Shown in pieces: positions 25,710 through 62,471 of a stretch of 64,000 nucleotides of DNA. The notes under the pieces were generated by a model. It saw nothing but the letters and a program-made list of their open reading frames with translations, had not been told where the DNA came from and searched no databases. The DNA is from Paracoccus sp. IB05. Its GTDB lineage: Bacteria > Pseudomonadota > Alphaproteobacteria > Rhodobacterales > Rhodobacteraceae. A program made the position numbers and the translations under genes. The first letter of the stretch is position 1. Each line of letters opens with the position of its first letter. Location of the stretch: NCBI RefSeq assembly GCF_016405985.1, contig NZ_JAEFCF010000026.1, positions 1 to 64,000 on the forward strand, read 5' to 3'.

Positions 25710-25880
25710 CCCGCAATCGGGGCGCCTGAGATCGTTATCCCTTCGGCGGGCGCCTCACGCGCCACTCTCCAGAGTCTTCAAATGCAGTAACGGTCCCTTG
25801 CGCCTGAGAGTTTACCGGGGCGGTTGCTCCTTCGGCACCGGACCCGCCCTGTCAGGGGCTGCCCGGATTCTCCCGATCCT
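25710..25880 (-). ncRNA. tandem glycine riboswitch upstream of gcvT
   Basis: The minus-strand leader shows two glycine aptamer cores in series. The first has CGGGAGAAT, GCCGAAGGAGCAACC and AACTCTCAGGCGCAAGGGAC. The second has CTCTGGAGAGT, GCCGAAGGGATAACG and ATCTCAGGCGCC. These are the conserved strands of the class, where glycine binding activates gcv expression. The location, about 90 bp upstream of gcvT, is the standard one. The region between the MATE gene and gcvT (25625-25998) otherwise contains only the hairpin at 25660-25696 and presumably the promoter. Confidence 0.93.
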
Positions 25881-25998
25881 GCCCGTTCTGACTAACCCGA
25901 GGCTCCCCCATCAGGCAAGTGAAAATCCGTATACGACGGTATTCCCCCGCAAGACGACATGCGTGATACGGCAAGGCTCGGCAAACCGGCGCCTCAGA

Positions 25999-57670: not shown

Positions 57671-57769
57671 GGCTGCCCCCCGTTAATGGGCCGCGCATTC
57701 CTGCGCCCTGGCCGCTGCCGGATCCTCTGCCCATCCGGCTCAATGCGGTCTATTGTTTACAGAACCGGA

Positions 57770-58222
57770 GCGCATATCAACTCTTGATTGATTGAATCAC
57801 GGCATGGTTGATTTATATCCCGAAAAGATTCAACCAGGCGATGATTATTACTTTATTTCGCAAACAATTGCAGCCATCTTCATTGCAGAACCCGCCCTTA
57901 TCTTTACAATCATCAATTGAATTACCCCCGGGAAAATTTCCGATTTTTTATATTTTCCGAGTCAGGAAAAAATCACTCAATGACGCAAATCAACCAGAAG
58001 TATACGACCTTAAACAGTCTCAACCTGAGAAGATACCATATTATTAATTAATTGATTTAATTATATATTTTTAAATTAACCACACCCCCAAAGACAACAA
58101 ACGCCATTATTGCGCCAAAATCATTGCCTCATTTTCCTCAAAATGGATCCAATCAGGTCAACATTAAAACAAATGTTGAATTCAGAAATGATACATCGTG
58201 CAAACAAAGGATCTCACCCAAA
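57770..58222. other. AT-rich island upstream of the Roadblock gene
   Basis: About 450 bp of strikingly AT-rich DNA (for example TTAATTAATTGATTTAATTA near 58043) in an otherwise GC-rich window. A 79-codon frame at 57808-58047 has no ribosome binding site and no recognisable motif. The stretch ends at the start of the Roadblock gene. It is either a promoter/leader with unusual composition, a remnant of acquired DNA, or a nucleoid-protein target. Confidence 0.7.
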
Positions 58223-58579
58223 ATGTCGACCAACATCTCTGAACTGAAAAAAATCGCCGGCTTTATCGGCGCCTGCCTTGTTGACAGCGAAACCGGCCTG
58301 ATGCTGGCAAGCGAGTCGAGCGGGATCAAATTCGACCTCGAAGCCGCTGGCGCTGCAAACACCGAAGTGGTGCGCGCAAAGAACGCTGCGATGGCCGCTC
58401 TGGGTCTTGATGATCATATCGAAGACATCCTGATCACGCTCGGCACCCAGCTGCACCTGATCCGTCCGCTGGCCTCGAACCCGGCCGTCTTCGTTTATGT
58501 TGCGCTGGATCGCAGCAATGCGAACCTGGGTCTCGCCCGCATCTCCGTGAAAAACGTCGAAGGCAAGCTGAAGGTCTGA
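58223..58579 (+). CDS. Roadblock/LC7-domain protein
   Basis: The 118-residue protein is a single Roadblock/LC7 domain: MSTNISELKKIAGFIGACLV, then DSETGLMLASES, a central helix (NTEVVRAKNAAMAALGLDD), and the strand-rich second half (ILITLGTQLHLIRPL, VFVYVALDRSNANLGLARI). Such proteins (MglB-like) form dimers that bind and regulate small GTPases. The start at 58223 has a weak AAAGGA site 13 bases upstream; the 33-codon extension runs into the AT-rich island. Two dynamin-like GTPases follow downstream. Confidence 0.8.
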   Translation: MSTNISELKKIAGFIGACLVDSETGLMLASESSGIKFDLEAAGAANTEVVRAKNAAMAALGLDDHIEDILITLGTQLHLIRPLASNPAVFVYVALDRSNANLGLARISVKNVEGKLKV

Positions 58580-58959
58580 CACGGCCCTGGTCTTCGGGCA
58601 TCTTCGGTCTTCGGGCGTCTTCCGGGGCGCCAGAAGGCCGGGCCGTTCCGGGGCGGCAAATGCCGGCAATCCCTGACGGGGACCGGACAGAGGGCGCTCC
58701 GGGGGTGTTCAAAGCCCAGACTTGGCCCCCAGACGGCCATAACCCAGCCACCATTAAGGATAACTGTCCGGCTGTGACGTAAAGCAATCGGACAGGGGTA
58801 ACGAGTAGTGCGGTCAGAACGGCCCGAAAGGGCCAGTATCCCCCCTTTGTCCCGGCGCGCGGCCGGGGCAGCGGAATGTCAGCGGCGGCGAGGCATTTGC
58901 CCGGTGCTGGCCGTTTTTCCAGTCAGCGTGGCCGGAATCCCGGCCGGAAGGAGGCCGTC
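58580..58959. other. gap between the Roadblock gene and the first GTPase
   Basis: This 380-bp region contains direct TCTTCGGGC-type repeats (58592-58625) and an inverted repeat CTGTCCG/CGGACAG (58764-58795). No gene is supported. A separate promoter for the GTPase pair is plausible here. Confidence 0.55.
58764..58795. promoter_or_regulatory. inverted repeat upstream of the dynamin-like gene
   Basis: CTGTCCG (58764-58770) and CGGACAG (58789-58795) are exact complements 18 bp apart. A further CGGACAG is at about 58684. This resembles an operator about 165 bp before the GTPase start; binding is inferred. Confidence 0.45.
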
Positions 58960-61095
58960 GTGAAAATCGCTCCGCAACTGCGGCAGGAGCTCGCCTTTTT
59001 GCGCGACGGGCTCGACAGGGTCGACCACCTGGTCGATCCGAAAACCAGGCCGAATTTTGCCCCCTTGCGCAACCGGCTGGAGGACTGGACCGCCCGCATC
59101 GCGGTGATCGGTCAGGTCAAGGCCGGGAAATCCACCTTCCTCAACGCCTTTTTGCATCAGCATGATTTCCTGCCCTCGGATATCAATCCCTGGACATCGG
59201 TGGTCACCAATATCCGCGTCAATATCGCCTCGGACCCGGCCTCGGGCGCGCGTTTCGAGTTCTTCGACGAAGCCGACTGGCAGGAGATCACCGACAGCGG
59301 CTCTGCCATCCGCCAGCTGACCGAAGACCTGTTGCCGGGCTTTGACAGCGACGTGCTGCGCCGCCAGAGCGAAGAGATGCGCGAACGCGCGCAGCGCCGG
59401 CTCGGGCGCCATTACCATGCGCTGCTTGGCAGCAGACATGACCATGACCACCTTTCGGCCGGTCTGCTGAAGCGCTATGTCTGCGCCGGCCCCGGCAGCG
59501 ATGACGGGCTCGACCGCGAAGCGCTTGGCCGCTATGCCGCGCTGACCAAAAGCGCCAGTATTTACATGCGCTTGCCGGAATTCGAAGTGCCGGCCATCAT
59601 CACCGACACCCCCGGGGTGAATGACCCGTTCCTTGTGCGTGACGAGCTGACCTGCCGCAGCCTCGACAAATCCGATGTCTTCATCATGGTGCTTTCGGCG
59701 CATCAGCCGCTGACCGATGTCGACGTCGCGCTGATCCGGATCCTGGCGCGCCAGGACGACAAGGATGTGATGATCTTCATCAATCGCATCGACGAGCTCG
59801 ACGATTACAGCATCCAGGTGCCGCGCGTCATCGCCGATGTCGAATGCCGGCTGCGCGCCGCGATCCCGGAAATCGACTTTCGTATCGTTGCGGGGTCTGC
59901 CTGGCTTGCCGATCTGGCGCTGCGCGAAGACGAAGGGGCCGATCAGCTCCGCGAGGCCGCCGACAGTGACGAGCTTGCGCAGTATATCCGCGAAACCTGT
60001 GGCCGCCTGCCGCGCGACCGCAAAGACCGGCTGATGCTCGCCTCGGGGCTGAACCGGCTGAAAGACACGCTCTCGGCCACGCTTGACAGCGGTGTGGGCA
60101 GCCAGCAGCTCAACCAGTTGCGCGGTGATATCCGGGCCGAGCTGAATGCGGCCCAGTTCATCGACAACCGCGAACGCGACGCTTTGCGGGTGCAGATGGA
60201 AAGCCTGCGCAGCGATATCGCCAGAACTGCGGCCCGTGATGTGAGTTCCGAAATCTCAGGCATCCGCGATCTGCGCAACCGGCTCGAGGGCCTCGTCGAC
60301 GCCGCAGATGCGCAGATCGAACAGGTGGTGTCGAAATCCTGGACCGGGCTTGAGGCGCGGCTCATGGATGCGATCGGCGATTTTGTCGACCGCCAGAAGA
60401 GCGCCTTCGAGGACCGGCTTTTCGGCGATGCTCAGCCAGGCGATGCCAGTACAACGCTCGATTTCGACCTGCTGCCGCTTCAGTCGGCGCTCGAGGCCGA
60501 AACGCGCCAATGCTATATCGGCTCGCGCAGCGGCACGGATGCGGCGCTGCAAAGCTGTATCCAGGCCTGCCGCCAGGCGATTGGTTCGAAATTCCAGGAC
60601 AGGACATCCGCGGATCCGACCGCCGAGATAACGCTTGAGGGTCTGCCCTGCTACAGTTTCACCTCGACCCTGACCTTCGCGAAACGCAACCTGCGCGTCG
60701 GCATGATCGTTGACCGCAGCTGGGCCTTCTGGCGCAAACCTTCGCTGAATGTCGACAAATCGCTGGGCGCTTTGCGTATGCTGACCACCGAAGAGCTGCG
60801 GCCTTCGGTCGAGAAAATTCTCGCGGCCTATAATGAGGCGCAGCTGGAGCGCGCCAGTGCAGGCATGTCGCGGATCCGTGTGATGCTCAGGATGTTCGAC
60901 GCGATCCTGTCGGAAAACGCGATCCGGCTGCAACAGGACAAGACAGATATGGAACGCATTGCACTGAACCCCGAAGCCCGGAAGGCCGTCTTGCAGCGCC
61001 TGCAAACAAAAATGGAGGCGCTGGAGCACCGCCTGACCGCGCTTGCCGCGCTGGAAACCGGGCTGAAGCGTCCGGAACTTGGGGCTGCCGCATGA
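58960..61095 (+). CDS. dynamin-like GTPase
   Basis: The 711-residue protein has a dynamin-type GTPase domain: P-loop GQVKAGKS (residues 51-58), switch threonines in NPWTSVVTNIRV, DTPG at 216-219 and NRID at 275-278. The rest is mostly helical with long coiled-coil-like stretches (RADLNAAQFIDNRERDAL-like segment 410-450, and the last 80 residues), as in bacterial dynamins that bind membranes. Its GTG start at 58960 has a perfect GGAAGGAGG site. The stop overlaps the next gene's ATG by four bases (ATGA), implying a two-protein complex. Confidence 0.83.
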   Translation: MKIAPQLRQELAFLRDGLDRVDHLVDPKTRPNFAPLRNRLEDWTARIAVIGQVKAGKSTFLNAFLHQHDFLPSDINPWTSVVTNIRVNIASDPASGARFEFFDEADWQEITDSGSAIRQLTEDLLPGFDSDVLRRQSEEMRERAQRRLGRHYHALLGSRHDHDHLSAGLLKRYVCAGPGSDDGLDREALGRYAALTKSASIYMRLPEFEVPAIITDTPGVNDPFLVRDELTCRSLDKSDVFIMVLSAHQPLTDVDVALIRILARQDDKDVMIFINRIDELDDYSIQVPRVIADVECRLRAAIPEIDFRIVAGSAWLADLALREDEGADQLREAADSDELAQYIRETCGRLPRDRKDRLMLASGLNRLKDTLSATLDSGVGSQQLNQLRGDIRAELNAAQFIDNRERDALRVQMESLRSDIARTAARDVSSEISGIRDLRNRLEGLVDAADAQIEQVVSKSWTGLEARLMDAIGDFVDRQKSAFEDRLFGDAQPGDASTTLDFDLLPLQSALEAETRQCYIGSRSGTDAALQSCIQACRQAIGSKFQDRTSADPTAEITLEGLPCYSFTSTLTFAKRNLRVGMIVDRSWAFWRKPSLNVDKSLGALRMLTTEELRPSVEKILAAYNEAQLERASAGMSRIRVMLRMFDAILSENAIRLQQDKTDMERIALNPEARKAVLQRLQTKMEALEHRLTALAALETGLKRPELGAAA

Positions 61096-62471
61096 AAATG
61101 ACAGATCTGACCGCCCTTTTGCAGGAAAAACGCGCGACCGCCGGCACTGGCTCGCCCTTGCGCGTGGTGATCTGCGGTGAAGTCAGCGCCGGAAAATCCA
61201 CCGTGATGAATGCGCTGATACGCGACCAGTTGCTGCCGGACAATATCGGGCAGAGCGCGCGTCCGGTGCTGGTCGCCGGCTGGCGTGAGATCCCCGGGAT
61301 CGAGGCCTCCAGGCGGGATGGACGCGAGATGCGCGCCGCCCTCCCCGGCACAACTGAGCTGTTTCATGAGGCCGAATTTGTCCGTCTCTGGCTCGATCAG
61401 CCGCATCTGTCTGGGATCGAGCTGATCGAATTGCCGATGACCAAAGCCGAAGAGCTGACCGGGGATCAGATCGACCTCGTGCAATCGGCCGATGTGATGA
61501 TCTGGGTCACCATCGGCTCGCAGGCCTGGCGGCTGACGGAAAAGGCGATCGTCGAAGCCCTGGGCGAGACCCGGCCCGACCGTTCCATCCTGATCGTGTC
61601 GCGTGGCGACAAGCTGCGCTCGGATAAGGATCGCGGCCGGCTGATGGAGCGGATGGAGCGCGAGACCGCTGCCCTTTTCGGGCATCGCTTCTTCCTCTTT
61701 GGCGACCGTCGCAAAATCGCGGCATCTGCCGGGTCCGAAGCGGAATGGCAGGAAACCGGCGGCGCGCCCCTTGCGGCGCTGCTGCGTGGCTTCGCCGACC
61801 AGCCGGGCCGCACCGTCTATGACCGGGAGCCACGCGAGAGACCGGTGGAAACCCGGGCCGCCCCCGGTTTTGAGGCCAGGTTCGCGGCGGAAGCCGAAGA
61901 AGACCCGCCACTCGTCACGGAAGTGGCGAAAGTGGAAGAAACGATCCTTTCCGACGCTGGGTCTGATACAGAGGTCTCGGCCCCTGAAAACCCGGCTCCC
62001 GACATGGTTGCCGAAAGCACGTCCGAGGCCGTCGCAGAGGTGGAACACATCCCCGTCGCGGCAGCCGGGGCTGACGTCGGGGTCGAGGCCCATGTTGAGG
62101 TTCCGCCAGACCCCGAACCGGTTGCACCCGTTGCCAAAAAAGCCTCGCCGGCCCAGCCCGGGCTCTTGCAGGCGGGCCTGCTGCATGAAGATGGCGCGGG
62201 CCATACCCTGCTTGCAGGCGATGCGGAAACCCTGGCACAGCTTGCTGATTTCTGCCGCGTGATGCTGACGCAGCTGCAAGATGAGCGGCTGACGGCAGAG
62301 GGGGGTCCGGTCAGCTTTTTCAGCCTCTCGACCGCAAAACGGCGGCTGCTGATCCAGGTGCAGAACGGCGCCGGCGCGGTCTTTATGCTCGCCGATGCGA
62401 CGGTGATGAACCAGGGCATGGCGCAGATGGCGATCAGCCAGCTTGGAGGCGACAGGCGGGTGACCGGCTGA
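61092..62471 (+). CDS. second GTPase with Roadblock-like C-terminus
   Basis: The 459-residue protein has a GTPase domain with P-loop GEVSAGKS (29-36) and SRGDKL as the base-binding motif, but the DxxG position reads ELPM, so hydrolysis may be impaired. An acidic Pro/Glu/Ala-rich linker (about 255-350) leads to a C-terminal domain (358-452) with LLQAGLLHEDGAGHTLLAGD, then RRLLIQVQNGAGAVFMLADA, which matches the strand-helix-strand layout of Roadblock/LC7 domains. It is translationally coupled to the larger GTPase. Confidence 0.72.
   Translation: MKMTDLTALLQEKRATAGTGSPLRVVICGEVSAGKSTVMNALIRDQLLPDNIGQSARPVLVAGWREIPGIEASRRDGREMRAALPGTTELFHEAEFVRLWLDQPHLSGIELIELPMTKAEELTGDQIDLVQSADVMIWVTIGSQAWRLTEKAIVEALGETRPDRSILIVSRGDKLRSDKDRGRLMERMERETAALFGHRFFLFGDRRKIAASAGSEAEWQETGGAPLAALLRGFADQPGRTVYDREPRERPVETRAAPGFEARFAAEAEEDPPLVTEVAKVEETILSDAGSDTEVSAPENPAPDMVAESTSEAVAEVEHIPVAAAGADVGVEAHVEVPPDPEPVAPVAKKASPAQPGLLQAGLLHEDGAGHTLLAGDAETLAQLADFCRVMLTQLQDERLTAEGGPVSFFSLSTAKRRLLIQVQNGAGAVFMLADATVMNQGMAQMAISQLGGDRRVTG

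Follow-up and report, generated by a model that had tools for sequence, protein, structure and literature searches.

A Roadblock protein encoded beside a pair of dynamin-family GTPases in Rhodobacteraceae

Introduction

The mycobacterial dynamins IniA and IniC are encoded by paired genes, for which we know of no Roadblock partner, and how bacterial dynamins get switched on or placed is to our knowledge largely open. In one report, most bacterial dynamins are described as operon pairs and heterotypic assembly is proposed to be fundamental (PMC6104087); the word Roadblock does not occur in its main text. Roadblock folds, found from prokaryotes to eukaryotes, dimerise and bind GTPases, and their dimers can serve as platforms (PMC10933270). 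The Roadblock protein MglB is termed both a GAP and a GEF in published abstracts. Prokaryotic Ras GTPases and MglB were surveyed in PMC4316618, which counts 328 MglB homologues uncoupled from MglA and does not use the word dynamin in its main text.

Here we analyse a locus that joins two regulatory worlds usually handled separately, that of MglB and Ragulator and that of the dynamins. The window, a stretch of 64 kb (64,000 nucleotides), contains on its plus strand a Roadblock gene followed by genes for a large and a small dynamin-family GTPase, as read from the open reading frames. The cluster points to a mode of bacterial dynamin control that none of the papers listed by our searches of an open-access library describes. 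To that extent the sequence-only reading, which did not recognise the cluster as described, is supported, and the combination itself is genuine, recurs across genera and in some cases takes the form of a fusion.

Results

Organisation of the locus

All three reading frames lie where the sequence-only reading had placed them, and the four-base overlap that it reported between the two GTPase genes was recovered as the sequence ATGA (Table 1). Since GGAAGGAGG lies just upstream of GTG 58960 and orthologues begin at the same VKIAP/MQIAP, this GTG is the likely start of the large GTPase. It is separated from the Roadblock stop codon by 380 nt, in which a pattern scan found no terminator-like site on the plus strand.

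Table 1. Features of the Roadblock-dynamin locus in window coordinates
Feature	Position	Strand	Remarks
AT-rich stretch 5′ of Roadblock, with inverted repeat	57750..58222	+	CAACAT-N8-ATGTTG
Roadblock (MglB-fold) stand-alone protein	58223..58579	+	ATG start, 118 aa
Large dynamin-family GTPase (large2)	58960..61095	+	711 aa from GTG; frame open from ATG 58876
Overlap of large and small GTPase genes	61092..61095	+	ATGA, four bases
Small GTPase (small2)	61092..62471	+	ATG to TGA, 459 aa
Small GTPase G domain, residues 1-240	61092..61811	+	dynamin-type; P-loop GEVSAGKS; DxPG place = ELPM
Small GTPase linker, residues about 240-351	61812..62144	+	nearly all pLDDT <50
Small GTPase C-terminal domain, residues 358-452	62163..62447	+	Roadblock order of secondary structure

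The AT-rich stretch has a GC content of 29-47% in steps of 100 bases, against 64% for the whole window. Its inverted repeat, CAACATTAAAACAAATGTTG, is present as an exact copy in L085 and slightly altered in L086 and L103, and the stretch may possibly act as a promoter or operator. Control of the Roadblock genes by CtrA, whose consensus is TTAA-N7-TTAA, was rejected: such sites precede two of the 15 Roadblock genes that are linked to GTPases, one of the six unlinked paralogues and one of the 96 control genes, and the window has none. On one side the locus is flanked by carB, pabB and a gene for a PRK07546 family protein, and on the other by recQ, directly after small2. Elsewhere in the window a glycine riboswitch aptamer was observed on the minus strand at 25781-25885.

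The Roadblock protein

Neither Pfam nor NCBIfam gave a match naming the Roadblock protein of the window (P0001). The Pfam family Robl_LC7 was matched by 5 of 24 aligned members of the P0001 family, with a best E of 2.2e-4, and the two best matches of the family profile among PDB sequences were Roadblock proteins at non-significant values (E 0.43 and 0.47). The AF2 model of P0001 (pLDDT 93.4) consists of a helix, two strands, a long helix, three strands and a helix, which is the Roadblock fold. With Foldseek it matched 140 PDB chains at E 0.001 or better; the best match was Myxococcus MglB (6izw_C, E 6.3e-8, TM 0.78), and LAMTOR/MP1-p14 chains were also among the matches. The protein had been called Roadblock from its sequence, and this identity is upheld by the match of the model to MglB although Pfam is silent.

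The two GTPases

Both GTPases had been read as dynamin-like, and both exceed the Pfam Dynamin_N cut-off of 27 bits, the large one with 60.8 bits and the small one with 32.3 bits. The motifs of the large GTPase are intact (P-loop GQVKAGKS, DTPG and NRID, for G1, G3 and G4). Its relatives among PDB sequences are a Cj-DLP chain, BDLP and Fzo1, and a 19-residue hydropathy window detected no transmembrane-like stretch in it.

The small GTPase was modelled by AF2 (mean pLDDT 71.6) as a dynamin G domain, a low-confidence linker that is probably disordered, and a mostly confident C-terminal alpha/beta domain (residues 358-452, block means 65-93); the model has no helical stalk after the G domain. Early Foldseek matches of this model were IniA (the best, 6j72, E 5.7e-12), mitofusins, BDLP and Cj-DLPs. 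By pattern search the G3 motif DxPG is absent from all 15 distinct small GTPases of the window type and present in all 15 sister-type small1 proteins, L103 and L104, which duplicate L087 and L088, being counted once each. In 13 aligned window-type proteins its place is taken by an invariant E-x-P. The same search found DxPG absent from other small GTPases too, for example those of L093, L095-L097 and L100-L102, and present in those of L094, L099 and L121.

The C-terminal domain has two strands, a helix, three strands and a helix, seven elements ordered as in the Roadblock model, with near-equal lengths and an offset of 339-344 residues. Scored with the Roadblock profile, the C-terminus of the window protein reached 20.3-20.7, or 22.9, against 19.5 for the best control among 39 windows, a narrow margin that makes the sequence evidence weak; no Roadblock entry was present among the 50 Foldseek matches listed for the full small-GTPase model. 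In L093 (G016) the small-GTPase frame contains a divergent Roadblock domain, and its C-terminus matches P0001 directly (E 2.5e-17, 36% identity). We consider it likely that the C-terminus of the window protein is a Roadblock-type domain.

The small1 C-terminus has no Roadblock similarity (profile score 9.1). At their C-termini, small1 proteins such as those of L083 and L105-L114 share a motif some 37 aa long, ARxLWxEL...VDxxDPxALLxxVDxLIxxLD, which is present in the 14 small1 proteins from which it was derived and also in a few other small GTPases. This motif was ruled out as a Roadblock dock, as it also occurs in L160 (G146), from a genome with no detected Roadblock.

A fuller module in related genomes

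At ten loci (L105-L114) five genes lie on one strand in the order Roadblock, large1, small1, large2, small2. The Roadblock copy of L108 is interrupted by a stop codon; in the nine operons with an intact Roadblock gene it lies about 19-140 nt from large1, by the ORF starts used. The window genome has large1, small1 and a second large2 on another contig (L083), and in the large-GTPase tree both large2 types of the window genus, Pseudogemmobacter, fall inside the large2 branch; the P. bohemicus and P. hezensis loci are carried by two same-genus genomes, G003 and G005. The window therefore holds the Roadblock-large2-small2 portion of a module that is fuller elsewhere. Besides this larger module, the analysis goes beyond the sequence-only reading in finding a small GTPase that lacks DxPG and seems to have a Roadblock-fold domain of its own.

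Downstream of small2 in seven of the ten full operons (L105, L107, L108, L110, L112, L113 and L114) there is a conserved short gene of 106-144 aa with the motif HDGxGCP. The one tested matched phrog_9174 (E 2e-5). The gene is not found in the window, where recQ is next.

Sister dynamin clusters with additional short genes that look like Roadblock genes were observed in L101, L102 and L116. They are accompanied by a Ser/Thr kinase and a PP2C phosphatase, confirmed by Pfam in L102 and seen by eye in L101 and L116. Pfam names none of the six short neighbour genes of L089, L098, L100-L102 and L116. Compared with the Roadblock profile they gave P 4e-4 as a group and 0.007-0.51 singly, in an HMM-HMM comparison that carries no control of its own, and these values are suggestive only of Roadblock-like proteins. 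In two related genomes of the window genus the second cluster looks damaged, as large2 is split into two frames in L092 and the third large GTPase of L091 is a piece of only 421 aa.

Linkage and co-occurrence

A lack of conserved linkage in relatives had been named beforehand as part of what would refute the sequence-only reading. We searched 199 evenly sampled genomes of the family, one per genus and including the window genome, with cut-offs of E 1e-5 for the Roadblock protein P0001 and E 1e-10 for the large GTPase P0002. The Roadblock protein was found in 13 genera, the large GTPase in 48 and both in 12, a co-occurrence with a Fisher p of 1.3e-7 (5e-7 when the window genome is omitted). The outcome favours the reading, as the linkage proved to be conserved and above chance: the Roadblock gene lies within 2 kb of the GTPase genes in 9 of the 13 sampled Roadblock genomes, or 9 of the 12 having both. 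Roadblock and large GTPase are on different contigs in G031, G176 and G209, and the remaining Roadblock genome, G226, gave neither a dynamin nor an MglA-like match. As 36 of the 48 large-GTPase genera have no detected close Roadblock, the Roadblock protein is not obligatory for the large GTPase, unless divergent Roadblock-like genes replace it.

A further set comprised 30 Roadblock loci, 19 of them alphaproteobacterial (L103-L121) and 11 from Tsukamurella, Nocardiopsis and Wohlfahrtiimonas. GTPase linkage was observed at 14 of the 19, closely at 12, with genes between in L116 and with two Roadblocks in L121. The other five (L115 and L117-L120) are unlinked Roadblock paralogues in genomes where a large GTPase is present. 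No GTPase linkage was seen within the fetched stretch at any of the 11 loci outside the alphaproteobacteria. The position of the Roadblock gene relative to the GTPases varies, being upstream, downstream, fused or on the other strand, and the linkage is kept.

Fusions and inheritance

In two genomes a small GTPase and a Roadblock domain share one stop-free frame, the Roadblock part matching P0001 with E 1.1e-46 and 70% identity in L094 (G027) and with E 2.2e-49 and 75% identity in L143 (G107). The fused GTPases score 34.4 bits (L094) and 45.9 bits (L143) against the Dynamin_N cut-off of 27. The Roadblock part of L094 starts with Met, so an internal start is possible.

The Roadblock tree was built from 116 columns; 12 of its 42 branches are strongly supported and its long rows are uncertain. 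One group (support 83/88) unites the Roadblock proteins of G006, G008, G005, G163, Rubellimicrobium and G187 with an unlinked copy from G176, and the large GTPases of the same six likewise form one group (support 99/95). Overall, Roadblock clades broadly match large-GTPase clades, and when the large-GTPase tree is rooted at its midpoint, genes linked to Roadblock are found on either side of the root. Distance matrices for 13 loci correlated at 0.52 between Roadblock and large2 and at 0.70 between Roadblock and small2; for the nine full operons the values for Roadblock against the other four genes were 0.37-0.66. These correlations are modest and weakly favour co-inheritance.

Search for an MglA-like partner

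A single query, the MglA-like protein encoded at L139 on an Agarilytica plasmid, was searched with a cut-off of E 1e-3, which distant GTPases could escape. It gave no match in the 13 sampled Roadblock genomes, or in 15 when G429 and G424 are counted. PF03029 at E 1e-3 had no match in the window genome, and in G016, G027 and G092 matches below the cut-off covered profile positions 2-37 only. An MglA partner elsewhere in the window genome was therefore rejected, none being found with PF03029 and the one query. The query did match in two outgroups, the Wohlfahrtiimonas and Nocardiopsis genomes, which have the Roadblock family but gave no match to the large GTPase. The Tsukamurella genome of L124 gave neither an MglA-like nor a PF03029 match, which argues against a simple partner rule. 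L139 itself has a Roadblock relative, a BLUF protein, an MglA-like GTPase and a Robl_LC7 gene in a row, possibly a light-linked MglA/MglB-type system.

Discussion

We think it probable that the two GTPases form a heterotypic dynamin pair to which the Roadblock protein belongs as a dedicated subunit, acting via the small GTPase. That the Roadblock protein serves the GTPases is strongly suggested, at the level of sequence, by the fusions, by the agreement between clades and by the failure to detect an MglA-like partner. The large GTPase would be the hydrolysing and probably mechanical member, and the small GTPase its stalkless companion, in which a flexible linker joins a G domain lacking DxPG to a Roadblock-like domain at the C-terminus. 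The MglB-like protein would most likely dimerise with itself or with this C-terminal domain, and the dimer could then present a surface that binds GTPases to the G domain of the small GTPase (or of the large one) and set the timing of binding, hydrolysis or assembly of the pair. In the fusions the Roadblock domain would be tied covalently to the small GTPase. That the proteins touch, which partner completes the dimer, which way regulation runs and that a membrane is the target are all inferred; activator (GAP), exchanger (GEF) and scaffold are indistinguishable here. Of the roles proposed in the sequence-only reading, membrane remodelling may be put forward from dynamin homology only, and polarity is unsupported. 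A Roadblock subunit that persists across genera, and in some of them is joined to one of the dynamins, would offer a concrete and testable control mechanism.

One specific form of this proposal, which we advance tentatively and regard as rather doubtful, is a Ragulator-like switch in which the small GTPase, stalkless and lacking DxPG, contributes its degenerate Roadblock domain to a heterodimer with the free Roadblock protein, and this heterodimer gates the large dynamin in its GTP hydrolysis or its assembly. If true, a dynamin-family machine would be regulated in trans by a Roadblock protein, an arrangement derived by exchange of an MglA-type partner for a dynamin.

The strongest alternative is that the Roadblock protein works like the LAMTOR subunits of Ragulator, as a scaffold or targeting platform that sites the dynamin pair and leaves nucleotide turnover unchanged. 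The platform function of Roadblock dimers in PMC10933270 and the LAMTOR/MP1-p14 chains among the Foldseek matches are consistent with it, and the lack of DxPG makes a classical activating role on the small GTPase doubtful. The best fold match, however, is MglB, which the abstracts term a GAP and a GEF, and the present results fit scaffold and regulator alike; we take this alternative seriously while leaning against it. That the cluster acts in anti-phage defence or stress in the manner of LeoA/LeoBC is unlikely. The patchy distribution (the large GTPase in 48 of 199 genera), flanking genes that by eye differ between genera, and PADLOC matches of the large GTPase to LeoA (45 bits, E 2e-12) and LeoBC (32.5 bits) would suit such a role, but these scores are low and may reflect general dynamin similarity, the best LeoA stretch spans 107-381 of 559, the window neighbours are housekeeping genes, and no defence gene was seen by eye in the flanks. 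It is very improbable that the partner of the Roadblock protein is an MglA-like GTPase from another locus and that its place beside the dynamins is incidental: plasmid relatives from other bacteria (38-57% identical) have no annotated dynamins around them in the 8 regions examined of 27 records, and in L139 the MglA-like GTPase is two genes and the Robl_LC7 gene three genes downstream, but against this stand the fusions, the conserved linkage and the lack of a match to the one query, which distant GTPases could escape, in the 13 sampled genomes.

A dynamin pair with its own Roadblock subunit, the reading we prefer, resembles several described systems in part. Cj-DLP1 and Cj-DLP2 of Campylobacter jejuni are, as in the window, encoded by two adjacent dynamin genes, and among PDB sequences the large GTPase best matches 5owv_A, a chain of this pair (732 aa, Cj-DLP1 by size; E 8.8e-9). 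Both Cj-DLPs have a neck and a trunk according to PMC6104087, whereas in the window the small partner lacks DxPG and is modelled as stalkless, and the pair comes with a Roadblock protein. With MglA-MglB of Myxococcus and Thermus the locus shares an MglB-fold Roadblock protein beside GTPase genes; the GTPase there is Ras-like, whereas the neighbouring GTPases here belong to the dynamin family, and searches of the window genome gave no MglA-like match. IniA of the mycobacterial IniA/IniC pair is the best Foldseek match of the small GTPase, which differs in being composed of a G domain, a linker and a C-terminal domain. The PADLOC match to LeoA/LeoBC is low and partial for the large GTPase and weaker for the small one, and the window adds a Roadblock protein. 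Finally, small GTPases are fused to Roadblock or longin domains in one chain in Asgard archaea, as described in PMC10933270, whereas the GTPase fused to a Roadblock domain here is of the dynamin family.
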